Positions 12,256 through 42,476 of a DNA stretch of 64,000 nt are shown here, piece by piece; the stretch's first letter is position 1; each line of letters opens with the position of its first letter. Location: contig NZ_JAPCHV010000020.1 in the NCBI RefSeq assembly GCF_026107645.2, forward strand, positions 1 to 64,000, given 5' to 3'. The notes below the pieces were generated by a model. That model was given only the letters and a program-made list of their open reading frames with translations, was not told where the DNA came from and made no database searches. The translations under genes and the position numbers were made by a program. The stretch is from Flavobacterium sp. MFBS3-15. Lineage in GTDB: Bacteria; Bacteroidota; Bacteroidia; Flavobacteriales; Flavobacteriaceae.

Positions 12256-15200
12256 TTATCGTATTAACGAGAAATGCGCTTTAAATTCCCTGTCCAGGCC
12301 GTTAGTACGGTATTTAACTACAAACCAGTAATCCGTTGCCGGCAATGGGGCACCATTAAAAGTACCATCCCATCCTTCATAGCCCGGTTTTACGATAGCT
12401 ATCACTTTACCATACCGGTCAAATATCGAAATTTCGGTTGTATAGTTATTTAGCCCGGTTATGTTCCATGTATCGTGTTCCCCATCGCCGTTAGGGCTGA
12501 AGAAATGAGGATAATTGAGCGCGCTCACTATTGTCTGGCCATTTCCGCATCCATTCACATCGCGTATGGCAACCGTATAAACACCCTGCGCAATATTATG
12601 GAAGTACGGTTCTGACTGCCATGGACCGCCATCAAGACTGTACTCGTAATTGCCCAACCCGCCTGTTGTACTGATACTTATTGTTTGGTTATTGCTAAAC
12701 GCCGGGCCCGCTTCGGCCATAATTACGGGTGCCGAGGAAACACCAATGGTTGCTGTTGCCTGCCCTACACAACCTGTGGCAGTATTGGTTGCAGTAACAC
12801 TGTAAACCCCAGGTTCAGCAATGACAATGCTCCCCAGTACATTTGCCTGCACTATATTATCCTTTTTCCATTCAAAGGTATAACCTGCCGAAAGCCCGGT
12901 ATTCAGTAAAATTGCTCCATACTCGCCGGTTGTCAAGTCCTGGCAAAGGTAATCATCAGCAATATCAAGCTCAGGAAGGCCATTGACAGTAAATAACATA
13001 CTAGCTGTATTTTCGCACAGTCCGGGAGCAGCGGGCACAGTATACGAAATCATGGTTACACCCGGTGCCAGGGCAGTAATCTCACCGGTTGCACTAATTG
13101 TAGCTACCGTTGTACTGCTGCTTGCCCAGGTTCCTCCGGTTACCGTATTGGCCAATTGAAGCGTTTCACCCTCGCAAACTTCCGTGCCGCCTGTTATGGT
13201 TCCCGGATCTACAGCTGCAGGGGGATTATTGATGACTATCGGAGGGGTTATTGAGGTACATCCTGAGGCATTTTTGACCGTTATTTGGTAAGTTCCGGGT
13301 AACAGATTGGCGAAATAAGTTCCCGTCTGGAAACTCACACCATTAATGCTGTAGCTCAACCCCTGCCCTGTCGGCGAATTTATCGTAACTGTACCTTTTG
13401 TCTCACCGCAACCGGGGTCTGCCACGGTTAAATCGGCGATTGCCGGCAAAGCCTGCGGTGGGTTTATTGTTATGCTCTTGTTAGAAGTACATCCATCGGC
13501 ATTTTGTACAGTAAGGACATAGCTGCCCGGTGCAACATTGGCAAACGAAGTTCCTGCCTGGAACGCACCGCCAATACTATAGGTATACCCCGGGCCTGTC
13601 GGATAATCCACTGTAACGGTACCGGTACCAACACTACAGAACGGCTGTGTAACCGTAACCGATGCCAGGGCCGGTACCACCGGGGCCGGATTCACTGTAT
13701 ATGGTGTGGACACAGACGTACATCCAAAAGCTGTTTTCACCGTTATGGTATAGGTTCCGGAAGGCACTGCGAAGAAAGTTGTCGCTGCCTGGAAGTTGAC
13801 CCCGTCAATACTATAGGTGTAACCTGCCCCAAGAGGCGATGTTATCACGATATTGGCTGCGGTAGTACAATTTGCCGGTGTAATTAAGGCTATTGCCGGA
13901 ACTGGAGTTACCGGCTGTGGGTTGATGGTTACGGGTACGCTTACTATACAGCCATTGGCCGCTTTCACATAGATGGTATAGTTTCCGGAAGCCAGGTTTG
14001 GGAAGTTTTTCTCCGTATCATAAGTAACACCGTCTATACTATAGGTAATTCCGTTGCCTATCGGGGCAACAATCAATATCCCGCCTGTAGCAGATGTACA
14101 GGTAGTTTGCGTTACAGAGAGCAATGGTGTCCCCGGCCCGGCAAGGCCCGGTTGTATGGCATAGGGCCCTGAAGTTGCCGTACATCCGCCGGCGCTTTTT
14201 ACTGTTACGGTATAATTGCCTGCAGGCGGATTGGTAAATACCGGATTGGTTTGGAATGTGGTTCCGTTGAGGCTATACATAAAACCGGCGCCTACCGGCG
14301 AAGTCACAGTAATGGTTCCGGGGGTGCCGCAATTGGGTTGTACCACTGTAACCAATGGAGCCGTAGGAACCACCGGTGCGGTGCTCATAGCAACAGGAAC
14401 AGTTATAGAAGTACAACCTAACGGGTTGCGTACCGTTACACTATAGGCAAAGCCTCCTGTCAATCCGCTAAACACAGTACCCGACTGAAAGTTTAGCCCG
14501 TCTATGCTGTACTCATACTGTGGCCCAAGCGGTGCCAGTACAGTAAGTGTACCTGTAGCCGAAGTACAATCCGGGTGGTCGTCTTCCAAAGTAGCAACAG
14601 GAGGGGGGAGGGCTGCTGCACTTACCGTAACCGGATATAGTTGCGAGACACATCCTGATGCATTTTTTACATATACAGTATAATCTGCAGGAACAAGGTT
14701 GCTGAACATGGTTGATGCCTGGTAAGAGATGCCGTTGATGCTATAGGTATACCCGGTCCCGACAGGCGAATTGATGCCGATGCTACCCACCGGGGTGTCG
14801 CACACGGGCTGTACAACTGTTACATCGGGAACGGCAGGTATGGCAGGCTGCGGATTGATGGTTATGGCGGAAGTGGTAGAAACACATCCCGCTGCATTTT
14901 TGGTCGTTATGGTATAGGTTGCCCCGCCGGCCAGGTTGGTAAAGGATGTACCCGCCTGAAAGTTGGTACCATCAATACTATAAGTGAAACCGGTTCCTGT
15001 AGGGCTGCTTACCGTTATGGTGCCGGTAGCCGATGTACAGGTTGGCTGTATTACATTAACCGTAGCAACAGGCGGTGTGAGCGGTGAGGCATTGATAACC
15101 ACATTGCTCAATGTAGAAACGCATCCCGTACCGCTTTTTACATATACGGTATAGGTTCCCGGATTCACATTTGAAAATTGCATGCCGGGTTGGTAGGTTG

Positions 15201-18468: not shown

Positions 18469-18588
18469 AAGCAGTTTTTTAGAACTTTAAAAATATGTTA
18501 ATTTTTCTTAAGAAAAAAACCTGTTTTTGTTACTTTTCTGCGAATAAAACAGCGAAAATACCTCTATTAAAATAGTATAACAAATAAA

Positions 18589-18619
18589 AAATCCCCTGCC
18601 GCAATGCGGCAGGGGATTT
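18589..18619 (-). terminator. Terminator of the 1957-aa adhesin gene
   Basis: A perfect 14-bp GC-rich stem with a 3-nt loop, followed by T residues on the minus strand, 28 bases past the stop codon. Confidence 0.88.
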
Positions 18620-18646
18620 CTGTAAATACATTTTGGGGGTATGCGC

Positions 18647-20165
18647 TTAGAATATTATTTTCTTGCTCACCTCGCCTTTTTGTGTGGCGATGGTAACAAT
18701 AAGCACCTGCTTTTCTGCCTGAAGGCCGCTGATCACTGTTTCGGTAGCGTTGATGTTATCGCCGCTGTACAGCATCCTGCCCCTTGTGTCGTATACCTTA
18801 ACCGAAGTCATGTCGGTAACGCCGGTACTGATATTGATGTTTCCGCCGTCTTTATACACCATTACGCTGGCAGTGCTCCACGCAGGGTTGCCGGTGCCTA
18901 GCGGCTGGGCATATATTACGTCGAACCTTCCGTTGATGGTTCCTGCCTCAGAAGTGAACTCATAGGCACCTCCCTTTAGGTCGTGCGTTGTTCCCAGCAA
19001 ATTGTCCCTTAGGAAGATGTCCTGCCCCTGGGCAAACACACCGTCAAACTGGTCAAGTGTTATGGTATAGGTACCGGCAGCAGTAGCTTCATAGCTCATC
19101 GGAACCTCATCGGTATCTTCAAACGATGCCCTTGCCTGGATACCCAACTTGTTATCTTCAACTACAGAGTACAGCGTTACCGGGCCATCGGTCATTGCCT
19201 TACCGTCCCAACCGTAGTCAAGGCCTGTGGTGGTATTAGCCGTGTAGGCAATCATTGCCGGGCTGGACTCGCCAAGGGTATTTTTAAGGCTCAGCCAAAG
19301 GCGTGACGATGTTACCGTTTCATCCTGTGCCGTCCTGAACTGGAAGTCGTGGTTTTTGCCAAAACGCATCTCGTTGTCAAAAACAACACTGCCTGATTGC
19401 GCCTGTACGATGAAGCCTTGGCCTGTGTTTAGCACCCACTGGCCATTCTCAGCCACAGTAGCATATTCGCCATCGCTTGTATCGCCATTGTTGTTATCAT
19501 TAGGTACGTTCAACCCGGCCATGGTGAGCTGTACATAACTTGATGTACCAGTTTCGTTCTTCTTCCTCCACAGGAAGATAGGCGAACCATTTACAAGATT
19601 GCCGCTGTTGCGTGCGAAGAACTCAGACACCTTGATTGGTGACGGATAAGGGTTACCCACAGCATTAAAGCCACTGTATGTTCCCGGGTTCCTTGGGGTT
19701 ACGGCTACGTTTACATCGCCATTGAATGGTGTACCTACATAGGAACCTTCCCAGCGTTCCGCTGTCGAGGTTTCATCCACATAGGCAGGGTGGTTGTTGG
19801 CCACACGGATAAGGTAGCTTTCACCTTCTGCAAACGTAATTGTACCCTGGCTTGTCATTGAATTATTGTAGGCATCGGTCAGCGGGTTGTACTTGTAGAA
19901 ACGGTTCGTGAGCGTTTTCGGTGAGAAGCCTATCAGCGTTTCACCTGCAACAGGCGATGACCAAAGGGCATAATCAAGCCTGAACATCGGCGCCGATTTC
20001 CTGTCAACCTTAATGAAGCCGGAATTGTTGGTATCATCTACCTGGATAAGGCCGGCATTGTTCTCTACCACGATCTTAGGGCCAACGATTACCGTTTCGC
20101 CCACCGGAGCACCGTAGGTTGCCTGTTCACCCTGAGCTACCACATGGGTAGTGTTGTTGATGGTT
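18647..20165 (-). repeat. Copy 1 of the shared C-terminal module
   Basis: This segment encodes about 506 residues matching those of the genes at 24944 and 28143. Shared landmarks in order are LDYALWSSPVAGETL, FNAVGNPYPSPIKV, FLWRKKNETGTSSY, SRLWLSLKN, FDGVFAQGQDIFL and the C-terminal KKIIF. Several stretches are also similar at the DNA level, for example the sequences around 18773 and 28265. Confidence 0.88.
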
Positions 20166-23100
20166 ATCTGCTTCGTGATGGTAACGTTGTCACCTTCCTC
20201 AATGGTCAGCGTACCGTTTAGCACTTCAAGCTCCAGCGCTGTAATTTCGCCATCGGTGCCTGTATTATAATCATAGTTGATAGTCGCTTTATCAATCACT
20301 GTCGGCGCAACACCTGCAGACCATCCTGTAGACGTCCAGATGTTTTCGCGGCCGGTTTTAACCGGTTCAGTACCCGAATTCGCAGATGTAGAATTTACAC
20401 CTACAGCCCTAACCCTATAGTAATACTGTGTATTTTGTGTAAGGCCGGCAACGGGTGCCGATGTGCCATTTATTTCAAGATCTTCATAGTTGGTTACAAA
20501 GTCAGGGACATACCCATGTGTACCCAAGTGAGACACATCATCCATATCATATTGCTCCCATTCTGTAGCCAGGGTAGGAAATCCAGAAACAGGACTAACG
20601 GTAACTCCCGAGGTTACAGTTGGTTTCCTAACCAAAGTTTTATTTTCCGTGGTAAAGCTTCCACTAGTCCAAGAGCTTCCCGGATCACTGCCAATGCTTC
20701 CAAAAATATCGACAAATGAACCGGTACTGATTTTATATAAAGCGATTGCGTCATCACCCCCGAAGCTTGTAGCGGCAATAAAAGTTGATGGACCAGAATA
20801 GATAGTTCCTGAATTACTGTATACCGCAACATCACCACTAGCAAGAGTACCACTCAATTGTATTGATTGGGTTACAGAAGTTGAGCCGTTAGCGTAAAGT
20901 CTTACTTGGTAATTGCTAAGGTTTATTGCTGATCCTGTACCGTTATAAATCTCTATATATTTATTACTAGACGAACCTTCAACATATTCTGATATAATTA
21001 AGTCTGTTGTTGTTGTCAAAAGGCCAAAAGTCGGCGATGTACTTACATCTAATCTGTAGCTTTCCGCGCCTTCAACTGATGACCAGTTTGCTTCGAAACT
21101 CACTGTGCTCACTTCAGACGCTGCGGTTACTTCGGGCGCAGGCATTGAAAGCGTAGTAAAGCTCAACTCCTCGCCATAAGCTGTACCATTGCCATTTATA
21201 GCAAAAGCACGCACGTAGTAAGTACTATTATCCTGCAAGTCCGTGATTACACCGCTGAAAGATCCCGTTCCCGAACCGATATTTTCACGCGTTACACCTG
21301 CTCCGTCGATAGCAGGATTAGCCGTAAGGCTGTATACCACACCTCTTGAAGTAATGGCGGATCCACCATCTGACGTAACATTACCACCTAATGTAGCAGT
21401 TGTAGCGGTCTGATCTGAAATTACTGATGTTGTAACTGTAGGGTAAATATTATTGGTTATCGTAATTGTATAATCTTCCGTTTCACCATATCCGTAATTT
21501 GAACACGGGTCAAGCGTCAGAAGGTTGCCATTTCCATTATCAGCTTCTCTCACACGTACCCTATGCTCACCTAAGGTCGCGTCGGCAGGTACCTGAATCG
21601 ACAACACAAGTGTTTCGTTGGCGCCAACTAATGATGTATTCCTGAATCGTTCCGATGTGCTGAATGTCCCATCATTGTTAAAATCAATCCATACAGCAAT
21701 GTTACCAGAAAAGTCTCCATTTTTAATTTGGGCTTCATAAGTAAGCCCCCTGAAAAGCGTTGTAGTGAACGAAGTGACAGGATAGTTTACATAAGCCTCA
21801 GGATTGCCATTACAGCCGGAGTCGATATTATTTATTCCATTCAACACAAATGATTCTATACCATCACCAGAATTGCAATCGTTAGTATACGTTGGAGAGC
21901 AATAAACCAGTACCGGCACCCCTGTAACACCCGTTCCCGAGCTCCAAAGGCTTCCCTTACGGGTAAACACTGTAAAATGGTAGGTAGACCCATTGGTAAG
22001 GCCGGTAACCGTTGTTGTGGCAGCCGAACCTTTGTACACTACATATTCGCCTGTAGCAATAGCTGTACCCGACCCAAAAGCTGGGTTTACCGTATAGGCT
22101 GTACCGTCACCCGAAGGCGTTGCCGTTACAGCACTGCCCAGTTTTGCCACAACAAGCACCTCGTCAAAACACGAACTGTTGGTCCAGTTCAGCTGAAGCT
22201 GCGCACTTGCCGGTAGCGTAACCGAAAGCGATGCAACGTTTACAGGCGTTACACACTGTGTAGTAAACGTACCCTGCGAAGAATATACCGTACCACCGTT
22301 ATTGGTAGCAAATGCTTTATAAAAATATTGTGTTGACGGCGTTAATGAGCCAACGTTTACCGTAAAGGTACCTGTTCCAAATGAGCCGCTTTCAGAAACC
22401 TGCGTACCCGAACCGTTAGTAAAGTTATTGGTAAGACTGTACTCGATACCGCGCACGGTAGCGTTAGAACAGCCTATTGAGGTGATGTTGCCGCCCAGTA
22501 CTGCTGTAGTTGCCATAACCGAAGTGCTGGTTGGCGTTGTTACCGTAGGCGCTGTATTTACTGCCGTACCCGTAACCGACTTGTTCAGGTTGGTATTTAC
22601 TCCTACGCCCGAAATAACGATGGTTCCGTTATAATTGTCTGTCGTATTGAGTGGCGAAAACTTCACATATACGGTCTGGTTAACGCTACCGCCTGCGTGG
22701 CTGATGTTTAGTGTAGGGTTATATGAACCGCCCTGCGTAGCCGAATACGTATATCCTGTTACCGCTGCCAGGCTGATGTTGCCCGCTTTCGCATTACCCG
22801 TTATAGTAAAACCAACGCCTGTAGCAGTGGTGGTATTGATACACTGGCTGCCCAGTGCCACGGCATTGGCCGACGTAAGCGTCTCAACCACTGCCGTAAT
22901 GGTAAGGTTGCCCGACACTAGCGGCTCGCTGGCCGTGATGTGCGACGATGGAATGGTAACGTTGATGGATGCATTGGTATCAAAATCACTATTGTCATAC
23001 GCCAGGGTTACCGTAGCGTGGGTATCGTCGACCCTTGTAACGCTTGCTATAGATACGCCTGCCGGCGCACCGCCCAGTATAAACCCTTCACCGTTAAATG

Positions 23101-24566: not shown

Positions 24567-24601
24567 CAAATTTATATCTTTTTTACGATTAACGACACAA
24601 A
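24567..24601 (-). promoter_or_regulatory. Promoter of the 1957-aa adhesin gene
   Basis: On the minus strand TTTG is followed after 23 bases by TAAATTTG. The -7 element ends about 47 bases before the first ATG. The design matches that of the promoter at 27879. Confidence 0.6.
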
Positions 24602-24746: not shown

Positions 24747-24771
24747 ACCCCCTTCGTTTTCACGAAAGGGG
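24747..24771 (-). terminator. Orphan hairpin terminator
   Basis: A CCCC(C)TTCG/CGAAAGGGG stem with a T-rich tail on the minus strand. It is the second terminator after the 971-aa gene, 118 bases beyond the first, and has no gene of its own. Confidence 0.6.
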
Positions 24772-24888: not shown

Positions 24889-24920
24889 AAATTCCCTTAT
24901 CGCACCGGATAAGGGAATTT
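24889..24920 (-). terminator. Terminator of the 971-aa adhesin gene
   Basis: A perfect 13-bp stem with a 6-nt loop, followed on the minus strand by a run of eight T residues, 24 bases past the stop codon. Confidence 0.88.
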
Positions 24921-28104: not shown

Positions 28105-28142
28105 CTGCCAAACCATAGTTGGCTAATTGGGGGTTATAAAGG

Positions 28143-29705: not shown

Positions 29706-32700
29706 GATCACCTCGTCTTCATCTTCTACATCTGTCCCAATCTGAGGCATAAAGCCTGCATCAGAAGAGATCACGATATTGTCCTGTGCGGTAGGAACCT
29801 GGCCGCCGCACCAGTTGGCCGCGTTATTCCAGTCAGAACTTGTACCGCCAATCCATTGTTTAGGAAGTATGGTTACCGTCGCTTCACTATCCGAAGAACA
29901 TCCGTTGCCGTTATTTACGGTAGCAGTGTAGGTAGTAGTTTCCTCAGGCTTGGCATATACTGTAGACCTTGCAGTACCGGTATAAGGGACTGTAGCTGCA
30001 GCATCGGTATATAAGCCTTCTACAGGCGACCAAACCGGTGTTGGATTTGTAAAGGCGAATGTCATGTTCGGCCTTGAAGTGCTTACGGCTACCTGACCTC
30101 CTGTTGCCGCATCCATACCTGTAATTCCACCTGCAACATCATCCTGCATCCTGCTGTAGGTAGAGTTGAATGTTGTAGTCGAGTAACGCACATTGTTACC
30201 CGATTCCCAACTCAGGTCAGGATTATTATGTATAGTTTCAACAATAACGTTCGACGTACCATCCCACACAAATGGTGTTGATAATGTAAACGTAACGAGT
30301 CCTGTGGCCGTCGCAGTAAATCCGGCAGGGCCATACACATCAGATGTGCCTGACACAAACCCGGTCATTACATTTGTAGAGGTCGCCCCCATCCTGATGG
30401 TGAAGTTACTTATTACTGCCTCTGAATTAGTTGTGAATGCACCAAGATCGAAGGTTACTGCTGTAATCACGCTTCCTGAAGCCATATTCTGGGCAGTAAG
30501 TTCATTTGCCCTGAAGAGCATCTGCGCCTTCTGGCCTTCGTAATACCTGCTTAACGGGTTCGGTTTGTTGGTATCAGTATTACCGGCAATAGCAGTTCCG
30601 GTGCCCAGTATTGCTGTTCCGGATGCCACAGCACCCGATCCCGCAGTCAGCATTTGTATTACTCCACTGCAAATACTTGCGGTAGCCGGCGTTACAGGGT
30701 AAACAGGGTTGCTGAGTACTGTAGCGGTATAGGTTGCTGTCCTTGCACACGATCCTGAGTTTTGCGTAGCCGAGATGGTGTACACTGTATTTACAGTCGG
30801 GCTAAAGGTATATCCCGTAGAAGCATTGCCCGACCAGGCCGCTCCGGCAGGTACCGAAGTAACAACAAAGTTGTCATATGATGAACCGCCTGCTGTTAGC
30901 GTTACTACAGCTGATGACTGCCCTGCGCACACAGTTCCTGTTGCACTGCTAAGTGTAAGGGCAGGAGGTGCTGAAATGCTAAAGTTAGGCGTAGCCAAAG
31001 CTCCCGAAGTAGCAGTGCCGCCCGGTGTAGTTATTGAAACAACACCCGACACACCTGCGGTAACAGTAGCTGTAAGCTGTGTACCGGCCCCGTTTATTAC
31101 AACAGGAGTTACAGGAGTTCCACCGATAGTCAATGTACCTCCCTGGAGATTTGTACCGGTAATGGTTATCATGCCTGAATCTGCGCAGTATGAAGCCGGA
31201 GTAAAGGCAGTTATCGATGGTCCCGAAGGCTGTCCTATCGTAATGATATACTCTACCGTTGTACCCCTTGCGTATGATGTACACATGTTGCCCGAAGTGA
31301 TAATCTGGTTCCTCGCATTCCTTACCCTCATCCTTCTGCTACCCAGCGTAGCAGTCGACGGAATATTTATGCTTATTGTACCCGAACTTCCGCCGGCAAT
31401 TGAGGCAGCACCCATGAATTCGTTGGCATCAGCAAAGTCACCATCGTTATTAAGGTCAATCCAGATACCTACACCCTGAGGGTTTGTATTTCCGCTTACT
31501 ACCGACACTGTAGCCGTATAAGCATTAGCCTGCAGGAATGTAGCCGTATTATCACTGCCTGTTAAGAGCGCATAGAAGTTATTTGAAGAATCACCTACAG
31601 CACCCGGTGTAGAGCTAAGGGTAGTACCGGCAACAGATATTGCCGTCATGTAATCTGCCGTACCCGAAGTAGTTATCGGGGCTGTACAGTAATCTATCAC
31701 AGTCATTGCTGCGCCTGCAGAGGTAACTGTACATCCGTCGGATGTTACTACAACACGATAGAAGTAGCCGCTGCCTGTGGCCGTTGTACCGGCATTAACA
31801 GTAAGCGTTGCAGATTGCGCACCGCTGTAAGTAGTTCCTGCAGGTGTACTGTTTGCCACATCGGCATAAGCACCGTTTAGTGTTGTAGCAAACTGCCATT
31901 GGTAGGTTGGCGACGGAGCAGAGGTAGCTACTGTGAAGTTAACCGAGTTGCCTCTTACTACCGAAGCAGCTACCGGAGCGCTACCTATAGTAGGATTATT
32001 TATTATTAGTTGCGCTGCAACCGAAGTTGCCGGGCCACATGGCGCTGTACCGTTAACAACCACGCGGTAGAAGTAAGCTCCTCCCACAGGTGTCGACGCA
32101 GTAGTTGTCACAGCCAGGGTTGCTGTAGTAGCACCCGAGTATGTAACGCCTGCAGGTGTAGCATTGGTTACGTTACTGAATGTGCCTCCAGCTGATGTAG
32201 CATACTGCCACTGGTAAGTTAAGCCTGTACCTGAAACATCTGTAGTAAAGTTCACCACAGAACCTGTTGAACAAGCTGTCTGGGCCATTGGTGCCTGGTT
32301 TATTACCACTGCACTATTTACAGTCAGCAAGGCATCATTCGAGGTTGCGGAAGCAGCACCTTCCTCAACATAGACACGGTATATCCAGTTGTTGTTAGCT
32401 GCCGTTATGCCAGACAGCGATAATACATTTGTATCTGCTCCGCTGTACGTTATATTTCCTGTAGTACCATTGTTTACAATTACCCATCCGCTTCCTGCAT
32501 TCACCTGCCACTGATACTCAAGCGCATCGCCGGTTGCCACTACAGTAAAGCTTGCAGTACCCGCGCCATTGTCGCAAAGTGTAACACTTGCAGGATGTGA
32601 CGTGATACCGATATCGCTAACCGATAGTGTTGCCGCGTCTGAAGTAGCTGCCGCACATGGTGCGGTACCGCTTACCACTACACGGTATTTATTGCCATCC

Positions 32701-35700
32701 ATACCCGGAAGAACATTGGTGACAGTTAGTGTAGCCGTTGTTGCACCGCTATATGTACTGTCATTGCCCAACGCTGTATACGCGCCGTTGCTTTCAGAGA
32801 CTTCCCACTGGTATGTCAGGCCGGTGCCTGTTGCTGCAACCGTAAACTGTGCGTTGCTGCCAGGTAGTACGATCTCAGAAGTCGGCATTGAAGTAATTAC
32901 AACAGGCTCACTGAATGTAAGCGTTGTGCTCTCTGAAGTTACACAGCCATTAGTTGTTTTAGTATAAGCTATAGTAACGGTTCCTGCTGCATGAGGGGTT
33001 ACAAGCCCTGTACTGCTTACTGTAGCAATGGCAGGATTTGAAGTTCCCCATATACCACCGGTTGTTACCATACCCAACTGTACTGTATTCGGCATACATA
33101 CCGCTATGTCACCACCTGTAATATCATCAACTACAGGGTAAGGGTTTACAGTAAGTGACGTAAGGCTTGTGCCTGTACCGTCGGCAGAAGTAACAGAAAT
33201 TGTTCCTGTTGTTGCCGATGAAGGAACTACAGCCGTAATTGATGTATCACTTACAATATTGAATACAGCATTTACACCATTGAACTTAACAGCGGTAGCA
33301 CCGGTAAAATGAGCACCTGTAAGTGTAATGGTATCGCCTGCGCCTGCACATACAGCTGTAGGTGTAAATGAAGTAATACGCGGAGGTGCAGGAAGTACTG
33401 TAAACACATAGTCTTCTGTTTCACCATACGATATAATACCACATGCGGGTGGGTTGGTACTTAAGTAGTCTGATTTAACCCTCATCCTGTGGTTACCAAC
33501 AATGGCACCAATAGGAACTGTAATAGATCCTGAACCTGTAGAGACATAACTTCCTGAAGCATATACTTTTTCAGAATCAGACAGAATCAGGTCGTCATTC
33601 CAGTCTACCCATACATTAATTCCGTGTGTAGATCCGGTTATACTTACCGAGATATTTACTGAATTGCCTTCAGACTGGCTTACTGCCATAGCAGGATTAT
33701 ATGAATAGCCGCCTGTAGCAAGAGTAGTACCTGTGTTAGAAATATTAGCTGTACCGCCTGTAGTAGTAACAGACTTAATATAATAACCTGTCGAAGAAGT
33801 TCCTGACGCACAATATCCATGTATAAATTGATATGTACTCCAATCGCTGTAGCCACTTGCGTCACAATTACTTCTTACATGAAGATAGTAAGTAGTGTTC
33901 ATAACAAGACCACTGTAAGCTGAAACTGATGTTCCTGTTATTGCAGTCCCACTTGCAGGTGGTGTAGCAGATGTAGTAACAGCATATTCGTAACCGGACG
34001 GTACCGGAGCCGTTGCAGGGGCTGCCCATGATAAGTTAGCCGTTGTCGTTGTAACAGACGTTGTGCTGAGTGATGTAGGAACGTAGCATGTAACCGGAGA
34101 TACAACTTTGAAAGTATAGTCTTCCGTTTCGCTATAATCAACCGTTCCACAAGCAGAAGGGTTTGCAGAATAGTAATCTGTCCTTAACCTCATCCTGTAA
34201 CTGCCATTAGGAGTTCCCGCAGGAATTGTAATCGTTCCTGTTATTAAATCAGTGTATGTAACATAACCGTTCGAAGTATATACAGTTTCATTGGCATCAT
34301 TAAAGTCAAGGTCATTATTCCAGTCAATAAACATGGCTAAACCTGTTCCATCTTCATAATAGTCTTCTACAGCTATTGAATAATTTACAGTGTTGCCCAA
34401 AGACTGGGAAACATTCATAATTGTATAATCAGAATATCCAGGGCCATCTGTAGCATTGTTGGTAATGTTTGTATATCCCCCTGTTGTAGAGAATGAATAG
34501 ATATACTCGTAACCTGTATTATTAGTACCTGTCAAACAATAATTGGTATAGAAAGGTACAGATCTCCATGAGCTGTATGAACCGCTTCCGCAATTTGTCC
34601 TTACATGAAGGTAGTAATTTGTACTGGCCGTTACTGCATAAGCGCTAACAGATGTACTTGTAGTAGCCGTACCGCTTGCAGGCGGGGTAGCCGATGTCGA
34701 TACAAAATATTCGTAACCTATTGCGGCAGAACCAGTAGCAGGCGCAGCCCAGCTAAAGTTTGCCGATGTTGTGCTGCTAAGGTTTACAGCCACGTTATCT
34801 GGCATAATACATGACGGTGTTTCGTGGATATTAACGTTATCCAATAGTATATCGTCATAGTATGCAGTATCCGAAGTTGATTTATCCACAACAAAGCGAA
34901 GCTGTACTGTAGTGCCTGCATAAGCTGACAGGGATAGTGTTACTGTCCTCCAGTTTACATCATCAGTAGCATTTGTATAAATATTAGTCCATATCGTACC
35001 ATTGAAAACATCAACTTTAAAGGTACAGTTGGTACCCGTCGAATAATTGCTGAAATAATCAAATGAAAGTTCAGGTACCGTAAGCGTCGCAAGGTTGAGG
35101 CTTGGTGACAGCAAAGTAACATCCGTCACGGTTCCCGGTGTAGATCCGTCAACCCATGCAAATGTACCGGCAGCACGTCCGTTAAGAGCTCCTTCATAAT
35201 CAGCCTGGCCAGCAAATAACCACAATCCTGCTCCTGATGGAGATGAAGATGTAGTTGTCCAGCATAAAGGTATAGTACCTGTTGCGAAATCCAATGCAAT
35301 TGGAGCATCTGAAACCACACATGGCGTAGTGAAGGTAAGCGTAGGTGAGTTCGCGCTTATACAGTAGCCAGTTATAGCTCTTACCCTTACGTAGTAAGTT
35401 GTATTTGCTGTAAGGCCGGTTATGTCCTGATTAAGGCCCGACACCGGCAAGGCCTCGTAGCCAGGAACGAATGTCGTGAAACCTGTGTTGGTAGCTACGT
35501 CCATAATATAAGTAGCATCTGCCGTAGATGAAGCCGTCCACTGTGCACGGAACGATGTTGCCGTTGCAGCCGGAGTTGTAGCAGCTGTTAGCGTAGCAGG
35601 AGCACCTGTAGCAGCAACACATGTAGTAACCGATTGAACTAAAGGTGATGTCGTATTGTAAACAGGACCATAACAACCGGTGTTATTATAGCTGTATACG

Positions 35701-38700
35701 TAATATTGGTAAGTGTTTGCAGCGGTAAGGCCTGTTTGTGCAAAAGTTAGCCCTGTACCGCTATATACCACTGTACCTGCCCCCAAAGCTGCATTGGCAG
35801 CGTAAGCTGTATAGTCAACCGGGGCAGTTACCGTTGCAGCACCACCGGTAATATTGTAACGCACCACCAAATAGTGGCTCGGTGCACTCGGCGCGGCTGT
35901 ATAAGCTACGTTAAACGATGTGTTGGTATGCGCTGAAGCCGTAAAGCTTGTTGGCTGGTCGGCAGGCGCTGTACATGGGTTAAGGTTTCCGTAAGCAAAA
36001 TAACCTTTATAATCTGCAGCAGCTATTGCAGAGGTAGTACTAAGCATGCCTGCAGCGTGTGTTGTAACCGGTATGATCGGGCTGTACTCGCCCGCAGCAG
36101 ACGGTGCCTGTATGATCTTGTTGCTTGCTACCAGTGTTCCGTCAAGCACCCTTACATAGGTACTGGTAAGGTTGGCAAGCCCACTGGTTATGAGTGCCTC
36201 CCATCTGTTTGAAGAAAGAGATGTAACCCCTACTCCCTGCGTACCTGCATTGGTAGTAAACGGCTCTACCCTTACAACTATGGCACCGCTCGCGGCAGTT
36301 GTAGGATCTACGTACATCGGCTGGTATGCCGATGAAGTCCCAACCGGGAACAATGCATTCAGGGTAAACGCTCCTGTAGAAGTCCTGCTTGCAGCAAATG
36401 TCCTTGCAAACGGCCCATTGATATATGCGGTTGCCGAACCTGCATTGTTCATTGTTCCGCCAGAAGTGGCCGTACCCAAAGTAAGCAGGTTGGTGGTGGT
36501 TGTATTTACTTTACCTGAGGTAAGGGTAAGCGTACCGCTCATTGTCAATGGGCTGTTCAATGTTACGCCCGAGGCATTATTGTTGTTCACCGTCAGGGAC
36601 GAAAGGTTGGCTGTTACCGTACCTGTAGTATTTTGTATCGTACCTGCATTGGTAATGGTTTGTGCAACTGTATTCACTACTGTTGAAACACCTGAAGGCA
36701 ATGCAAGGTTTAGCGTGGCATTCGCATAATATATGCTGCCTGCACCAATTGATATATTGCCCGCTACAGCAAGCTCATAGCCGTTATGGCTAAATTCACC
36801 CCCATTTTGAAGTGTAAAGTTTCCTTTAACACCCAATGGATAGCTATTTAATTTAACCACCCTGTTAGTTGCGGTTGCAGTTCCTGTCGCAGGGCCGTTT
36901 ACCACAACATTACCAAAGTTGATTTTTCCTGAACCTACATAGTTATAGAGGTAATACCCGATAGCATTTCCACCGGCGGTCGAAGAAACTCCGTCACCAA
37001 ACCTCGTAGTGTGCGATGGCGAAACCTCAGAGGTGGCAGAAGTCGAATAATAAAGTGTATAATGTGAAGTTGATGTGGTGACAGGAGGGTCAATAACCGT
37101 TATCGTACCACCTGTCCAGTTCACCACTGCGGCTAGGTAGAGCGCTGAACTGGCATTTGCAGCAACTGTTGAAGTTGCCACTGTTCCCGAATTCGGGTCA
37201 ACGTTAATGTTACCTGCGCTTTGGTTAAAAACACCGTTGTGATAAAGGTTACCGTTAATGTTAAGCGTACCACCGGCAACAGTAAGCGTACCGCCGTTGG
37301 TAAACCTTCGGTCACCACCACCTGCAGGTCCAACATTTACAGTGCCGCTATTCAATGCGAATGTACCGCCGGAGTTATTGCTGATACCTGTAGTTGATGC
37401 ACCGGCGGCGTTAATTGTACCACCGGCAACAGTAATTGTGCCTGTATTCGTCACAGTGGTTGCATTCACAGTACCGCTGTTTGCGTTTACGGCACCTGCA
37501 TTTGTCAGTGTCGCTGATGCCAGCGTACCGCCTGTTACATTAATAGTACCGCCTGTTACAGTGGTAACGGCATTTGTAACTGTCAGCGTGTTCGCGCTAA
37601 GCGCTAAAACTCCCGTATTGGTTATACCTACAGCAGATGCCGCAGCTGTGTAGCTGCCATCAACTGTAACGGTATGGCCCGGCTGTATGGATACTACATC
37701 TGTAGCTCCTGGAACAGCATTCTTATTCCATGTTGCTGCATCATTCCAGTTACCTGTCTGTACAGAAAGGTATGGAATGTCTGCACTGTTGATACCCATG
37801 TAGAAATCATTTGTAGTGATCTGGGCATAGGTAAGGCCTGTCCTTTGGGCATGTGGCAAAGTAGTACCTGCCTGATGGGTACCTGCAACCCCTGTAAGAG
37901 TTATGATCCTCGCTGCAGCTGTCGATGGCGCAGAGCCAAATACTCCTGTAGCCGATAGCGCCAGCTTATATGTTGATGCCGCCATGTCTGTACCCAAAAC
38001 ACTCACCGACCATTTGCCGTTAGAGCGGGTATCCATCGTATAGGTATCATCGGTAATAGCTATAGGGCTTGTACCTGTCCCCGCTGTGTATGTTACAGCG
38101 AGTATGCCCGGATCTGTAGGTGTAACGCGCTCTATCCATGCGTGCCTGGCATTTCCGGCTGCATCGACCAACGGGAATTGTGAAGTTGTAGTTGTCGGAA
38201 CTGCATTGCCCGCAAGCGATGAGCCTGTTTGGGTATTGTTCCATCCGCGGGCAAAAGCGCTGCCCGGAGCCATACCGCCCGATGTAACCGTAAGTGTTGT
38301 ACCCGGCGCGGTTAAGGTACCCCATAGTAGTGCTTTGCCTGCCGTAGTGCTGGCTTTACCATCAAATACGATAATGCCTGAAACACTTGCAGCCACCGAA
38401 GTGTTTACCACAACCTGATTCAAAGGATTGATGGTAACACCATTAGCCGATGTATTCCTGAAGGTTACATTTGCAAAGTTGGTTGTTGGAGATGATGCCG
38501 CATTAATAATTACACCCGCACCATTTACAGTTACAGCTTGTGCTGATGTCTGGGCGGAAGCTGTAGTACCCGTAGTCGCAGTAAACACAGTAGTTCCGTT
38601 TGCTATAAAGGTACCATCATTTTCTACCGTTAAATTCCCCCCTATGTTAGTTGTAGAGGCGCTTTGGTGATAAACACCGGCAGTCACGGTAAGGTTGCCA

Positions 38701-41700
38701 TTGATAACATTGGCATCTGCAGCTGCACCCGCCTGGGTAATCCTCCTTGTGGCTATTGCACCCGGGTTATTTACCACAAGGTTGCCAAGGTTAAGCCTGC
38801 CTGAACCTGTAAAAAGGTTGTAGAAGAATCCATAGTTACCGCCGCCGGCTTCTGTAGACGATCCGTTACCAAACTGTACTGTATGGTTCGAAGAAGCATT
38901 AAAGCTTACACTAAGGTTTCCATACAAAGCATAAGCGCTGGTGTTGGTCGTGGCTGTATGCGGGTCTACAATAGTAAGAGTACCTCCGCTAAGGGTTATA
39001 GTGCCTGTAGCAAATGGTGTACCGGATACCCCGAAGCCAACCAGTGGCGTTCCCGAAGCTACCGATGTAAGCGCATCGCCATTATTATTACCGTCAACCA
39101 CTATGGCGCCATTGCTTTGGGTAAAGGTACTGCCTGTTGTAGTAACAATGTTACCGTTTACAATAAGTGTTCCTCCCGATACGTTCAGTGTACCGGAGTT
39201 AGCAAGCGTACTATTATTGTTAGCACACCCCACAGTAAGCTGGCCACCGCTTACATTAAGCGTACCACCGTTTTGTATTGTGATGCTGCTTGTCGTAAGG
39301 GTACCCGAAGTTACTGCCATTGTAATGCCCGATGGTATGATCGCCACCTGGCCGCATACCGGCCCGGTGCCGTTGTTCCAGTTGGCCGCAGTAGCATAGT
39401 CGCCTGAAGTTATTGCGGTAATCTGCGGCGATGCGAAAGAGGCGGATGTTACCCACGCGCTATATCCCGAGGCATCGCAATTGGTTCGAACGTGCAGGTA
39501 ATAGGTAGTATTGGTGGCCGGAAGAGCTACATTACTCACTGATGTACCTGTTACCCCTGTACCCGATGCAGGTGGCGTAGCCGACGTGGTTATGGCATAT
39601 TCATACCCTACTGGTGTTCCCCCTGCTCCCGCAGGCGGCGCTGTCCAGCTTATGTTGGCGGTAATTGTAGTCGGGTTGGTCGTAACTGTAAGTGCCGTAG
39701 GTACCACACAGTTAGGTGTCTGCGAAAAGCTCACATTGTCCATGAACATGTTATCCCCATATTCTGAGTGGAATTTGAAAGCTACCAGCACGTAAGGCTT
39801 GTTGGCAATCTCCGAAGAATAGTAAATTTTGGTGTTCCATTGGGCCGTACCTGACGCAAGGGAACTGTCATGCCTTGCATACAACGACCCCATGTTGGTC
39901 CAGCTAACACCATCTGTAGAATACTGCAGCTGCATGCCTTCATTAAGATGTGCGCCACTGTTGTAAGATGTACCATTCTCATTCCTCCAGTCAAACTTAA
40001 TGGCCACATTGCTTATTCCTGTAGTATTAAGCGGAAGGCTGATCAGGCGTTCCTCTGACCCCGCTCCTCCGTTACTATTGGAATAAGAGTTATATTGTAT
40101 CATATGGGTTCCTTCACTCGGGCTGGTAGTCGGGTTGGACCCGGACGTCACATACGACAAATAAGTACCGGTTTGAATGGCGGCAATATTCCTGCTCCAA
40201 CATACCGGTATCGTGGTTGCATTAAAGCCCTGGCTCGACGGGAATGTCGTTGTAGGTGTACAAGGTGTCGTAAAGGCTGCACTTGTTGACCAAGCGCTAT
40301 AGGTGCCGCTGCAGTCTGTACGCACATAAAGCGTATACTGCGTACTTCCTGTAAGAGCCGCCCCAAAAGTAACAGAAGTAGCTGAAGTGGTCGTACCACT
40401 GTCGGTAAGGCCTGTAGTCCCGCTTCCTCCGGCCCCACTTGTCCGCAGTTCCCACTGGTATCCTGAAGGTGTTCCTAAAGAAGGTGCTGACCAAGAACCG
40501 TTCCCAGCATTATAAGCGGTTGCTCCTGCGGTGACATTAACTGGAACACCACACGCCGGCGGAGTAGTAGTTACCAATATTATTTGAGCCAACGTCGATC
40601 CAATGGCTGTAGCAGTAGGTGGCGAAGCCGGACTCGGGTTTGTAGAATCGTTTCTATAATAAAGCCCCCTGTTGGTCGCAGTAAAACCTGCCCAGTTGTT
40701 TAAACCAGTAAAACTTGCCGAATTCTCGTCTACCGCCACAACCAAATTGCTTATCCCATCCCAAAGGAAAGGTGTTGTTAGTGTGAGTTCCACCCAGGAG
40801 TTTGCCGTAAGGTCCGGCATTGTACCTGAAAAAACCTGGGTCATTGCTGAAGCAGCAATCCAGTCAGTCGTTGAGCTAAAGGTTGTTTTTGCTGTATTTC
40901 CGATATATACTACCCAACTATTATAAGTACTAAACGGAGTGTTTGCTGATGTTGGCTTGAACCGTATTTTTGTGATGTAGTTGTTTCCGGCCGTGTTGTT
41001 AGCGTTCAGTTCGCTTGCAAGGTAGATCTGCTGCGAATAGTTATAGCCATAATTCGTGACAATTGGAAACTCAGTAACAGTTGTTGAGCCGCTGCCGATC
41101 TGGCCGGAAAACATAGTGGTGAAAGACCCGGCACTTGTAGTATAGTATGTCGTTCCGCCACTATTGGTTGCATACGACCGGTAATAATATGTTGTACCCG
41201 GTGTCAATCCGGAAATTGTTGTAGAAAAAGTTCCTCCTGAACTTCCGCTAAAACCTGAGCCTGCTACTAAAACTGTTGAAGCGTCTGCCGGGAAAGAAGA
41301 GCTTGTACTATATTGTATGCCATATGCTGTAACCGCAGAACAGCCTATTTGGCTTATTGTAGTGCCTGTAATGGTTGCACCTGTGCTTGTTAGTGTTCCG
41401 GTTGTGCCGTTGCCTGATAATGTAGGTGCGCTATTTATACCCGCCCCGGTTACGGCTATACTGCTGGCAGCGGCACTGCCCCCTGCTACCGGTATGCTGC
41501 CACTGTAACTCGCTACCGACGTTGGCGTAAGTTTAATGAATACTTGTTGGCTGATAGTTCCTGACGAAGGGGTTAACGTAAGGGTGCTGGTATATGTTCC
41601 GCCTGATGTAGTTGAAAAAGTATAACCTACGAACGGACCAACCGTTACGTCTCCAGTGAGGTTGACCCCGCTAACTGTAGTATTCTGTGGCCCGCCCTCA

Positions 41701-42476
41701 ACATTGAGACAGACATTGCCAAAAGTACCTGATATTACACCTCCTGAAAGAAAAGGCCCGGTAGCCGGAGTATATGTCAAAGATATATCATCGATAGCTC
41801 CATAACCATGTGGTGAAACTGCATCGGCCTTATAGGTAAAAATAAGGTTTGTTGTCGTACCTGCAAGTGTATTTGATAAGTTAACGGTTTGGGCTGTAAA
41901 TGTTGTAACTGCAGCGCTTGGATAAGGGCCGAATACAATACCTGTAGTGGGAGCTGTGCCTGAAGTTGGTGCAGCCGCATTGGTACTTACCAAAAGGTAA
42001 TCATATGGCGTTCCACCAAAAACATCTGAAACTGCCTGCTTGTACTTAAAAGTAAGTACAATATTTGTTGCACCGGGCGGAATCGTGATACTCCTGTACA
42101 TATGTGCAGTAGTTGCGATGCCATTAGTACCGACACTTGTATTGCTTGATCCGATAAAAGCGGCGCGGTTGCCGGAATAACCAGTCTGTGCCGTGCCTAT
42201 GTACCACGCACGGCTGGTATTAGAACCATTTAAAATAGTCCAGTTGTTTGCTGCAAATGTAGCACCTGTCTCAAATCCTCCATCACCGGAAGCCGAGATG
42301 AGAGTTTGTCCAAAAGCACTACCACCCGCCCCTATAAAAATCAGGAACAGCAAGATGCAAGACTGCATCCGCGAGTGCTGTTTTTGAGCACGCTGATTTG
42401 CATCATCCTGTGCCGCTTTACTTCGCACCTCTAACGATCTCCTATCATTAGGTGACGAAATGTAATTTTTTACCAT
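28143..42476 (-). CDS. 4777-residue mosaic surface protein with type C-like T9SS sorting module
   Basis: The largest gene in the window. An unusual charged N-terminal stretch of 36 residues precedes the signal peptide (about 37-57), so the ATG at 42368 is an alternative start. Then come a jelly-roll-like domain (58-245), Fn3-like units, MAM-like segments (about 751-917 and 2387-2553), and two G8-like/beta-helical regions (starting about 1020 and 1565). Two GEVED domains (about 2645-2792 and 2885-3025), a TIG/IPT domain (3031-3105), four Ig-like repeats with YQWQ motifs (3187-3595), a third GEVED domain (3596-3747) and a second TIG domain (3750-3835) follow. The final 520 or so residues are the shared sorting module. 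All this indicates a very long T9SS-secreted adhesin or matrix protein. No catalytic motif is seen. The frame is open throughout. Confidence 0.9.
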   Translation of the reverse strand: MVKNYISSPNDRRSLEVRSKAAQDDANQRAQKQHSRMQSCILLFLIFIGAGGSAFGQTLISASGDGGFETGATFAANNWTILNGSNTSRAWYIGTAQTGYSGNRAAFIGSSNTSVGTNGIATTAHMYRSITIPPGATNIVLTFKYKQAVSDVFGGTPYDYLLVSTNAAAPTSGTAPTTGIVFGPYPSAAVTTFTAQTVNLSNTLAGTTTNLIFTYKADAVSPHGYGAIDDISLTYTPATGPFLSGGVISGTFGNVCLNVEGGPQNTTVSGVNLTGDVTVGPFVGYTFSTTSGGTYTSTLTLTPSSGTISQQVFIKLTPTSVASYSGSIPVAGGSAAASSIAVTGAGINSAPTLSGNGTTGTLTSTGATITGTTISQIGCSAVTAYGIQYSTSSSFPADASTVLVAGSGFSGSSGGTFSTTISGLTPGTTYYYRSYATNSGGTTYYTTSAGSFTTMFSGQIGSGSTTVTEFPIVTNYGYNYSQQIYLASELNANNTAGNNYITKIRFKPTSANTPFSTYNSWVVYIGNTAKTTFSSTTDWIAASAMTQVFSGTMPDLTANSWVELTLTTPFLWDGISNLVVAVDENSASFTGLNNWAGFTATNRGLYYRNDSTNPSPASPPTATAIGSTLAQIILVTTTPPACGVPVNVTAGATAYNAGNGSWSAPSLGTPSGYQWELRTSGAGGSGTTGLTDSGTTTSATSVTFGAALTGSTQYTLYVRTDCSGTYSAWSTSAAFTTPCTPTTTFPSSQGFNATTIPVCWSRNIAAIQTGTYLSYVTSGSNPTTSPSEGTHMIQYNSYSNSNGGAGSEERLISLPLNTTGISNVAIKFDWRNENGTSYNSGAHLNEGMQLQYSTDGVSWTNMGSLYARHDSSLASGTAQWNTKIYYSSEIANKPYVLVAFKFHSEYGDNMFMDNVSFSQTPNCVVPTALTVTTNPTTITANISWTAPPAGAGGTPVGYEYAITTSATPPASGTGVTGTSVSNVALPATNTTYYLHVRTNCDASGYSAWVTSASFASPQITAITSGDYATAANWNNGTGPVCGQVAIIPSGITMAVTSGTLTTSSITIQNGGTLNVSGGQLTVGCANNNSTLANSGTLNVSGGTLIVNGNIVTTTGSTFTQSNGAIVVDGNNNGDALTSVASGTPLVGFGVSGTPFATGTITLSGGTLTIVDPHTATTNTSAYALYGNLSVSFNASSNHTVQFGNGSSTEAGGGNYGFFYNLFTGSGRLNLGNLVVNNPGAIATRRITQAGAAADANVINGNLTVTAGVYHQSASTTNIGGNLTVENDGTFIANGTTVFTATTGTTASAQTSAQAVTVNGAGVIINAASSPTTNFANVTFRNTSANGVTINPLNQVVVNTSVAASVSGIIVFDGKASTTAGKALLWGTLTAPGTTLTVTSGGMAPGSAFARGWNNTQTGSSLAGNAVPTTTTSQFPLVDAAGNARHAWIERVTPTDPGILAVTYTAGTGTSPIAITDDTYTMDTRSNGKWSVSVLGTDMAASTYKLALSATGVFGSAPSTAAARIITLTGVAGTHQAGTTLPHAQRTGLTYAQITTNDFYMGINSADIPYLSVQTGNWNDAATWNKNAVPGATDVVSIQPGHTVTVDGSYTAAASAVGITNTGVLALSANTLTVTNAVTTVTGGTINVTGGTLASATLTNAGAVNANSGTVNATTVTNTGTITVAGGTINAAGASTTGISNNSGGTFALNSGTVNVGPAGGGDRRFTNGGTLTVAGGTLNINGNLYHNGVFNQSAGNINVDPNSGTVATSTVAANASSALYLAAVVNWTGGTITVIDPPVTTSTSHYTLYYSTSATSEVSPSHTTRFGDGVSSTAGGNAIGYYLYNYVGSGKINFGNVVVNGPATGTATATNRVVKLNSYPLGVKGNFTLQNGGEFSHNGYELAVAGNISIGAGSIYYANATLNLALPSGVSTVVNTVAQTITNAGTIQNTTGTVTANLSSLTVNNNNASGVTLNSPLTMSGTLTLTSGKVNTTTTNLLTLGTATSGGTMNNAGSATAYINGPFARTFAASRTSTGAFTLNALFPVGTSSAYQPMYVDPTTAASGAIVVRVEPFTTNAGTQGVGVTSLSSNRWEALITSGLANLTSTYVRVLDGTLVASNKIIQAPSAAGEYSPIIPVTTHAAGMLSTTSAIAAADYKGYFAYGNLNPCTAPADQPTSFTASAHTNTSFNVAYTAAPSAPSHYLVVRYNITGGAATVTAPVDYTAYAANAALGAGTVVYSGTGLTFAQTGLTAANTYQYYVYSYNNTGCYGPVYNTTSPLVQSVTTCVAATGAPATLTAATTPAATATSFRAQWTASSTADATYIMDVATNTGFTTFVPGYEALPVSGLNQDITGLTANTTYYVRVRAITGYCISANSPTLTFTTPCVVSDAPIALDFATGTIPLCWTTTSSSPSGAGLWLFAGQADYEGALNGRAAGTFAWVDGSTPGTVTDVTLLSPSLNLATLTVPELSFDYFSNYSTGTNCTFKVDVFNGTIWTNIYTNATDDVNWRTVTLSLSAYAGTTVQLRFVVDKSTSDTAYYDDILLDNVNIHETPSCIMPDNVAVNLSSTTSANFSWAAPATGSAAIGYEYFVSTSATPPASGTATTSTSVSAYAVTASTNYYLHVRTNCGSGSYSSWRSVPFYTNYCLTGTNNTGYEYIYSFSTTGGYTNITNNATDGPGYSDYTIMNVSQSLGNTVNYSIAVEDYYEDGTGLAMFIDWNNDLDFNDANETVYTSNGYVTYTDLITGTITIPAGTPNGSYRMRLRTDYYSANPSACGTVDYSETEDYTFKVVSPVTCYVPTSLSTTSVTTTTANLSWAAPATAPVPSGYEYAVTTSATPPASGTAITGTSVSAYSGLVMNTTYYLHVRSNCDASGYSDWSTYQFIHGYCASGTSSTGYYIKSVTTTGGTANISNTGTTLATGGYSYNPAMAVSQSEGNSVNISVSITGSTHGINVWVDWNDDLILSDSEKVYASGSYVSTGSGSITVPIGAIVGNHRMRVKSDYLSTNPPACGIISYGETEDYVFTVLPAPPRITSFTPTAVCAGAGDTITLTGAHFTGATAVKFNGVNAVFNIVSDTSITAVVPSSATTGTISVTSADGTGTSLTSLTVNPYPVVDDITGGDIAVCMPNTVQLGMVTTGGIWGTSNPAIATVSSTGLVTPHAAGTVTIAYTKTTNGCVTSESTTLTFSEPVVITSMPTSEIVLPGSNAQFTVAATGTGLTYQWEVSESNGAYTALGNDSTYSGATTATLTVTNVLPGMDGNKYRVVVSGTAPCAAATSDAATLSVSDIGITSHPASVTLCDNGAGTASFTVVATGDALEYQWQVNAGSGWVIVNNGTTGNITYSGADTNVLSLSGITAANNNWIYRVYVEEGAASATSNDALLTVNSAVVINQAPMAQTACSTGSVVNFTTDVSGTGLTYQWQYATSAGGTFSNVTNATPAGVTYSGATTATLAVTTTASTPVGGAYFYRVVVNGTAPCGPATSVAAQLIINNPTIGSAPVAASVVRGNSVNFTVATSAPSPTYQWQFATTLNGAYADVANSTPAGTTYSGAQSATLTVNAGTTATGSGYFYRVVVTSDGCTVTSAGAAMTVIDYCTAPITTSGTADYMTAISVAGTTLSSTPGAVGDSSNNFYALLTGSDNTATFLQANAYTATVSVVSGNTNPQGVGIWIDLNNDGDFADANEFMGAASIAGGSSGTISINIPSTATLGSRRMRVRNARNQIITSGNMCTSYARGTTVEYIITIGQPSGPSITAFTPASYCADSGMITITGTNLQGGTLTIGGTPVTPVVINGAGTQLTATVTAGVSGVVSITTPGGTATSGALATPNFSISAPPALTLSSATGTVCAGQSSAVVTLTAGGSSYDNFVVTSVPAGAAWSGNASTGYTFSPTVNTVYTISATQNSGSCARTATYTATVLSNPVYPVTPATASICSGVIQMLTAGSGAVASGTAILGTGTAIAGNTDTNKPNPLSRYYEGQKAQMLFRANELTAQNMASGSVITAVTFDLGAFTTNSEAVISNFTIRMGATSTNVMTGFVSGTSDVYGPAGFTATATGLVTFTLSTPFVWDGTSNVIVETIHNNPDLSWESGNNVRYSTTTFNSTYSRMQDDVAGGITGMDAATGGQVAVSTSRPNMTFAFTNPTPVWSPVEGLYTDAAATVPYTGTARSTVYAKPEETTTYTATVNNGNGCSSDSEATVTILPKQWIGGTSSDWNNAANWCGGQVPTAQDNIVISSDAGFMPQIGTDVEDEDEVITQNVQVFGNSLTVEDGAVMNVYGGCVLNITNAVTVEEGGSLIFDNYAHLVQGENVTNNPNSGEITFKRLSSKIFRLDYTLWSSPVEDQMLKAFSSGTLDNRFYKYNETSDAYSLIGSPSTTEMDEGKSYLIRVVNTHPAYVAPAEEAEEPEGTRWQGEFTGRPRSGNIDVPVTNQLNGFNAVGNPYPSPINIYDFFDGNAGMINPGSALYFWRKKNETGTGSYARVTKMMYTRNMTNDFGDTGEGYFDGTPSSWVINPGQGFIVKVVQAGNVHFNNGMRVGLNNQQFFRNAQDQDEVTMSRMWLNINGSEGQFAQAGIGYTDVTTLDIDYGWDGRAFVNDGNMSLFSLAGEEKLGIQARAAFDASDVVPMGYNAAAAGTYTISLDHFDGVFTTDVDIFLKDNLLGGVTHDLKAGNYTFETEGGINTSRFEVVYAEVLGTDNPVLDPNNVIVYKNGTSININTGVLNMEGVAIYDTRGRMLYSKDGINATETVIENLHSDQQVLIIQINTDKGRVTKRIIF

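Follow-up and report, generated by a model that had tools for sequence, protein, structure and literature searches.

RemA/RemZ-tailed giant genes in Flavobacterium sp. MFBS3-15: a shared tail module and, in its family, an often separate history of tail and variable front end

Four giant genes standing one behind the other on the minus strand of a contig of Flavobacterium sp. MFBS3-15 (NZ_JAPCHV010000020.1, contig C20 below) raise the question of what kind of protein they encode and how such a row came to be assembled. The window, by which we mean the whole stretch of 64,000 nucleotides that was analysed, had been the subject of an earlier note that placed four T9SS surface proteins of 2070, 1957, 971 and 4777 residues at 12256-42476 and ascribed the locus to repeated duplication and domain swapping. 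The open reading frame call returned the same four minus-strand frames, with the same coordinates and codon numbers. The genes, here P1 to P4, and the features that accompany them are listed by position.

12256-18468, minus strand: P1, 2070-aa type B T9SS surface protein (by domain and CTD profiles)
18587-18621, minus strand: terminator-like hairpin 3' of P2, with T tail
18647-24520, minus strand: P2, RemA-family; FN3-like, GEVED and LTD passenger followed by the RemA/RemZ module
18650-20224, minus strand: RemA/RemZ-type tail module of P2, a ~390-aa domain plus a ~75-85-aa CTD
24567-24600, minus strand: Bacteroidota-type promoter match of P2, 55 nt before its likely ATG
24889-24920, minus strand: terminator-like hairpin 3' of P3, with T tail; a second hairpin lies at 24748-24771
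24944-27859, minus strand: P3, RemA-family; PATR/autotransporter-type beta-repeat passenger followed by the RemA/RemZ module
24947-26515, minus strand: RemA/RemZ-type tail module of P3, from which the structure model was made
27879-27912, minus strand: Bacteroidota-type promoter match of P3, 25 nt before its start, taken as 27853
28075-28106, minus strand: terminator-like hairpin 3' of P4, with T tail
28143-42476, minus strand: P4, 4777-aa RemA-family protein; GEVED (three stretches), FN3, Ig-like and G8 passenger followed by the RemA/RemZ module
28146-29690, minus strand: RemA/RemZ-type tail module of P4

Judged by eye, the N-termini of P1-P4 carry hydrophobic stretches of secreted-type appearance, that of P4 starting only past about residue 36, and the ATG at 24511 is a more likely start of P2 than the one in the ORF call. 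P4 is the longest open frame among the 114 family genes compared. P2 holds a Pur_ac_phosph_N match over cut-off, which from its name we take to be an FN3-like N-terminal domain. The terminators on three genes and promoters on two that had been claimed can be located: T-tailed hairpins with the longest or near-longest stems lie immediately past the stops of P2, P3 and P4, in a region where such patterns occur at near-chance frequency (20 versus 16.0 in shuffles; 10 versus 13.4 expected), and the Bacteroidota-type promoter pattern TTG-N16-23-TANNTTTG has three matches in 31.5 kb, one on the plus strand and two on the minus strand, the latter directly in front of P2 and of P3. With terminator-like hairpins behind them and promoter matches in front, P2 and P3 each appear to be transcribed as a unit of their own. 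Elsewhere in the window, ARAGORN reported a tRNA at 7257-7331, its two-base anticodon unresolved, near a tRNA-Pro at 7627-7702.

Scans with the NCBI model for "type C" sorting domains, NF033708 (cut-off 40 bits), gave 52.9, 40.3 (marginal) and 49.5 bits for P2, P3 and P4, and 60, 45 and 58 bits when the tails were scored alone, in agreement with the type C-like module that the three genes had been said to share. The common part is far longer than the sorting domain: a tail module of ~520 aa, aligned over ~525 positions, is 59% (P2-P3), 52% (P2-P4) and 47% (P3-P4) identical in protein and 63, 60 and 57% identical in DNA. A profile built from 38 of 40 reference modules (A2) was run against PDB chains and matched RemZ (8gl8; 435 bits, residues 617-1113) and RemA (8gl6; 424 bits, residues 949-1435) over nearly all of its 493 positions. 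P2, P3 and P4 end in a RemA/RemZ-type module that consists of a ~390-aa domain and a type A/C-like CTD.

RemA is a gliding adhesin and RemZ (Fjoh_0803) a RemA homologue, and the last ~75 residues of both have been solved in complex with SprA-PorV, where the substrate CTD, the sole well-resolved part of the substrate, lies inside the SprA pore against PorV loops (PMC10994853). The RemA CTD pulled down PorV, RemA fusions formed static and mobile surface foci with some release, and SprB furnished with the RemA CTD was exposed on the surface but immobile (PMC12618676). Type C signals were described from ChiA, and little is known about them according to a review (PMC10202324). Scored against NF033708, the tails of RemA and RemZ exceed the cut-off (65.5 and 73 bits), as they do by a narrow margin against TIGR04183 (24.4 and 26.6 bits, cut-off 23), so that the NCBI label "type C" covers proteins treated structurally as Type A. 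Among 38 family members scanned, NF033708 matched in all 38, TIGR04183 in 29, PF18962 in 22 and a T9SS M36-peptidase model in 8; every remaining family matched one or two members with E above 0.001, and with such sporadic weak matches the ~390 residues before the CTD have no consistent Pfam or NCBIfam family. The P3 module, modelled with AlphaFold2 (mean pLDDT 85.3), ends in a fold that Foldseek aligns with the solved CTDs of RemA and RemZ at TM 0.87 and 0.88 by target length, for the P3 module only. Upstream of the CTD the same search of the PDB returned low-TM, mostly high-rmsd matches, and as these are unconvincing the assignment of a solved fold to the ~390-aa domain was rejected. Measured against RemA and RemZ as known T9SS substrates of F. 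johnsoniae, P2-P4 share homology over nearly the whole module and the tail class; their passengers are of other kinds, judged by Pfam alone, and P4 with its 4777 residues is over three times longer than RemA with 1436.

P1 is of another class. Its tail is a type B CTD (TIGR04131, 105.8 bits, cut-off 35; also a CHU_C match), as had been noted, and its front consists of GBD_T9SS_assoc and Ig_7 domains followed by an array of ~78-aa repeats, 10 of 16 spacings of a simple repeat motif being 76-79 residues. The claim that these are SprB repeats was not borne out, PF13573 being absent from the Pfam matches of P1 at a limit of E<=10, with HMMER filters discarding most matches above E 0.1. P1 shares its sorting class with SprB, the main gliding adhesin, and differs from it in having no Pfam SprB repeat found and no linked sprF: there is no porP/sprF next to P1 and no PorP match listed on contig C20. 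A PorP/SprF neighbour was rejected, the adjoining gene coding for a beta-lactamase-family protein with DUF3471.

The host genome (4.0 Mb, 43 contigs) encodes over cut-off SprA (2780 bits), GldL (248 bits), three PorV-family and six PorP/SprF-family proteins, and together with the RemA/RemZ module this machinery supports the T9SS surface display that had been proposed. It has nine type C tails over cut-off and eight near-full modules, namely the three of the window, three on contig C18 and one each on C19 and C22. A RemA-family passenger on C18 (L055:270-8888) carries ten YDG and two MBG_2 stretches and is shared with F. akiainvivens. The 24 host type B CTD matches over cut-off comprise five genes that adjoin a full PorP match, one (on C27) that adjoins a weak partial PorP and 18, P1 included, that adjoin none. 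Orphan type B substrates of F. johnsoniae share the shuttle Fjoh_1677, and there 3 of 12 type B proteins are unlinked (PMC12618676). By gene context P1 resembles these orphans, being type B without adjoining porP/sprF, and unlinked genes are more frequent in the present host (18/24 versus 3/12). A PorP/SprF-family gene with a full match at C8:141471-142316, on a contig without type B match, is by analogy with Fjoh_1677 a candidate for the common shuttle of the 18 unlinked genes.

Some host type B tails lie a few kilobases apart on one strand (C4:80398/83794/87531; C7:23592/27054; C24:29111/33705), and clusters of large surface genes accordingly recur in this genome. P1-like type B genes adjoin type C/RemA-module genes in 2 of 24 loci found in named genomes (F. 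akiainvivens, L037, and a MAG, L054). On host contig C3 (L059) a P1-like type B gene, whose product shares 47% identity with P1 along 686 residues of the C-terminal part, likewise adjoins a gene for a type C protein, the latter tail-only. In L037:1-13372 and L059:148-7998 the genes stand in a same-strand row with a T9SS endonuclease I gene between the type B and type C/RemA-module genes, and the two endonucleases are 64% identical; these 347-348-aa genes beside the type B genes were considered as shuttles and rejected, since they encode endonuclease I with a T9SS tail. Repeats of the P1 type were also found inside the RemA-module passengers L148 and L117 (best stretch 57 and 60 bits), so that this repeat occurs with both sorting classes.

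The position of the row beside ribH was found in none of ten relatives. The order recF-TPR-ribH is kept in 10 of 10 relatives read, and beyond ribH no match to P1-P4 was found in ~12-18 kb of these relatives. A close relative with the same locus was looked for and rejected, ribH being only 67-75% identical in the 15 same-genus relatives searched and the neighbourhoods read in ten of these giving no match to P1-P4. TrxB-like and GIN genes lie ~11 kb past ribH in relative G010 and ~37 kb past ribH here, with the array between them, and the 618-aa gene next after ribH in G010, which we take to be MutL-like, has its homologue here on contig C1 (77% identical); by both signs the array occupies a rearranged place. 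The comparison across relatives that the earlier note had called for has in this way a divided outcome: the place beside ribH is unshared in the ten relatives read, but same-strand arrays of the family stand at other places in 11 other genomes (among the matches listed).

The family is widespread in the genus. Among the matches listed, the module was matched in 21 of 24 same-genus genomes (G023 partial), weaker or shorter module matches occur in 6 of 15 genomes from other families of the order, and the near-full-length genes, counted with shorter matches left out, number 77 in 21 genomes, host included. Almost half of these (38/77, among the matches listed) stand in 16 same-strand arrays in 12 genomes, an array being defined by one strand and gaps under 2 kb, a count from which broken contigs may hide some. 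The 24 loci from the scan of named genomes come for the most part from Flavobacterium (F. zepuense, F. subsaxonicum, F. akiainvivens, sp. Sd200 and others) and from Flavobacteriaceae MAGs; one record bears the label Pseudopedobacter, and one is an uncultured Bacteroidetes. Flavobacterium genes of this family often stand in same-strand arrays.

Tails and passengers were then compared as separate entities. A tree of 46 modules places 6 of the 8 host copies in one clade (98/97) and the other two elsewhere; within it one C18 copy groups with the P2 and P3 tails (100/99), and the pairing of P2 with P3 is weak (90/36). Modules also group by genome in SW22, in JrMAG and for five of the seven Sd200 copies (92/86); those of F. 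subsaxonicum and F. zepuense pair off one to one, and in F. piscinae and F. akiainvivens the copies are spread over the tree. The P2 passenger has homologues reaching to or near the junction in SW22 (47% over 367 aa), F. lacus (47% over 321), F. piscinae (44% over 349) and Sd200 (38% over 399), the P3 passenger has one in SW22 (31% over 448 aa), and that of P4 is matched by Sd200 genes, weakly at the junction (33% over 153 aa). Clustering of 111 passengers gave 39 clusters, 25 of them single, and the clusters of P2- and P4-type passengers contain 7 and 5 other genome labels, linked via shared neighbours. The FN3/LTD/GEVED-type domains of matching passengers could have been gained independently.

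Gene sets, that of 114 genes included, were cleared of frames without a near-complete module and of repeats of the same gene. Passenger similarity was defined by blastp at 1e-10, and 48 of the 114 genes fell outside the test for want of a junction-adjacent passenger homologue elsewhere or of a passenger-dissimilar paralogue in their own genome. In 33 of the 66 testable genes the module is closer to that of an own-genome paralogue without passenger similarity than to that of any same-passenger gene elsewhere, and 33 show the opposite, the module being no closer to the paralogue. All three window genes are in the former group (0.59 versus 0.44, 0.60 versus 0.37 and 0.53 versus 0.33). Stricter passenger filters gave 15/36 (300 aa, 40%) and 8/20 (500 aa, 50%) for closer own paralogues and 21/36 and 12/20 for the opposite; for cross-genome passenger pairs, module identity fell short of passenger identity by more than 10 points in 20/116, 20/46 and 16/21 from the loosest to the strictest filter. 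AU tests, with groups chosen post hoc when the tree was already in view and the weaker P2-type row L036 excluded, reject a passenger-wise grouping of modules (P2-type, five rows, p 3e-56, and three rows, p 2e-72; P3 pair, p 6e-4). These comparisons show that tail and passenger histories, as read from sequence, differ in about half of the testable genes.

Single cases illustrate the difference. Passengers are 64% and modules 48% identical between F. piscinae and F. lacus, and 57 and 38% between G012 and G011, the G011 module being 70% identical to that of the gene next to it in tandem, with 29% identity between the passengers of these two neighbours. For P2 and P3 against SW22, the passengers (37 and 37%) are on average no more similar than the modules (42 and 40%); what speaks for separate histories in these two is the contrast with paralogues from their own genome. 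Two Sd200 neighbours are 94% identical in DNA over 1621 nt, from ~60 nt past the module start to 70 nt beyond the stop; their module proteins are 90-100% identical from residue 30, their passengers 37% over 1795 aligned residues. Two neighbours in G019 have patchy DNA identity of 68-97% within the module. A blastn screen of 216 within-genome pairs returned the Sd200 pair as the only one with an identity of 85% or more over 120 nt, so that recent long tracts are rare. A tandem pair in G012 with 98-100% DNA identity at the 3' end was kept out of the main evidence because that stretch lies at an assembly gap. The RemA-module gene L153 (G012:C2:770500-778500) has ~98 bases that fail to match themselves when the sequence is compared with itself, the preceding 97 bases being repeated after them, and the apparent break in its frame probably stems from the assembly. 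With DNA identities of 57-63%, nothing recent is visible among the modules of the window. Taken together, these patterns support recombination across the junction in the RemA/RemZ-module family; the domain swapping of the earlier note has found support to this extent, as recombination between tail and passenger, but half of the testable genes (33/66) give no sign of it.

We consider the row, with a probability of roughly 0.7, to be a set of RemA-type adhesin cassettes whose tail has been homogenised or exchanged apart from the variable front ends, accompanied by the orphan type B protein P1. Adhesion, dependence on PorV and recombination within the window itself would follow from the likeness to RemA and from the family at large. 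Possible, though on balance doubtful, is a history in which resident tails expanded lineage by lineage, unconverted, and passengers (LTD, GEVED, repeat arrays) were joined to these tails through illegitimate recombination or horizontal transfer. It would account for the clade of host tails, the many single passenger clusters and the P1-type repeats that both precede a type B tail and sit in RemA-module passengers; the Sd200 tract, however, goes no further than the module and the 70 nt that follow the stop, and the patchy identity inside the G019 modules is as expected of conversion tracts. Recent simple tandem duplication of one ancestral gene on site, with front ends diverging afterwards, we regard as quite improbable, and the repeated duplication of the earlier note does not hold in this form. 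The adjacency and closeness of the P2 and P3 tails and the lack of an array beside ribH in the ten relatives speak for it, but P2- and P4-type passengers cluster with those of other genomes, the C18 copy groups with the P2 and P3 tails, whose own pairing is weak, and P1 is of another class.

It is unlikely that P1-P4 act not as adhesins but as enzymes, secreted or at the surface, or as scaffolds that handle DNA. The LTD domain of P2 comes with a partial match to the exonuclease ExeM (69 bits against a cut-off of 1300), and on host contig C3 the LTD protein adjoins T9SS endonuclease I and the P1-like type B gene; against this stand Pfam and NCBIfam profile scans in which no catalytic family exceeded its cut-off in P1-P4, an architecture of repeats and Ig/FN3-like domains, and the RemA/RemZ tail, which gives the adhesin role, taken in the earlier note from family knowledge, a better footing while leaving it a prediction from sequence. 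Least probable is a mobile genomic island inserted near tRNA genes. The island has a G+C content of 0.44-0.52, above the 0.38-0.44 of the left flank, tRNAs lie at 7.2-7.7 kb, and the homologue of the gene after ribH in G010 is on another contig here, but the right flank is similar to the island in G+C, a beta-lactamase-family gene, a hydrolase gene and others separate the tRNAs from the array, and the 20 flanking ORFs scanned contain no integrase or transposase family, on which ground an origin from a mobile element was rejected.

If P2-P4 are RemA-type adhesin cassettes, each would be led by a Sec signal peptide, cross the outer membrane via SprA, be picked up by PorV through its CTD, and stay on the surface or be shed, with the variable N-terminal passenger binding a surface or polymer; P1 would probably be served by an unlinked SprF-like shuttle. 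Homologous recombination among the tail modules of one genome, as gene conversion or tail exchange, would keep the tails alike while diverse passengers are retained or re-paired. Extended to the genus, to which step we attach somewhat less than even odds, this becomes a Flavobacterium cassette system in which the module and the first bases past the stop form the recombination unit, gene conversion homogenises tails among array members, and passengers are preserved, copied and joined to other tails, perhaps even between sorting-signal classes, so as to form a store of surface specificities. The open-access literature, read by title and the first lines of abstracts, yielded no description of tail homogenisation in the RemA/RemZ-module family, nor was an account of the array habit or of separate tail and passenger histories found in that literature.

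In Rhs and CdiA proteins a conserved end serves export and a variable end specificity, with recombination at the junction. RemA-module genes resemble them in having a constant export part, a variable part that would confer specificity and apparent recombination at the junction; they differ in that the constant part is C-terminal and T9SS-specific and that no toxin or immunity family was found among the ORFs scanned in the window.

Our results tie proteins labelled merely "T9SS type C" to RemA and RemZ, for which a solved export complex exists, and single out a conserved ~390-residue domain, present also in RemA and RemZ, that is unnamed in the family libraries used. For adhesin diversification in gliding bacteria they offer a testable picture, in which a constant tail may be combined with an exchangeable head.
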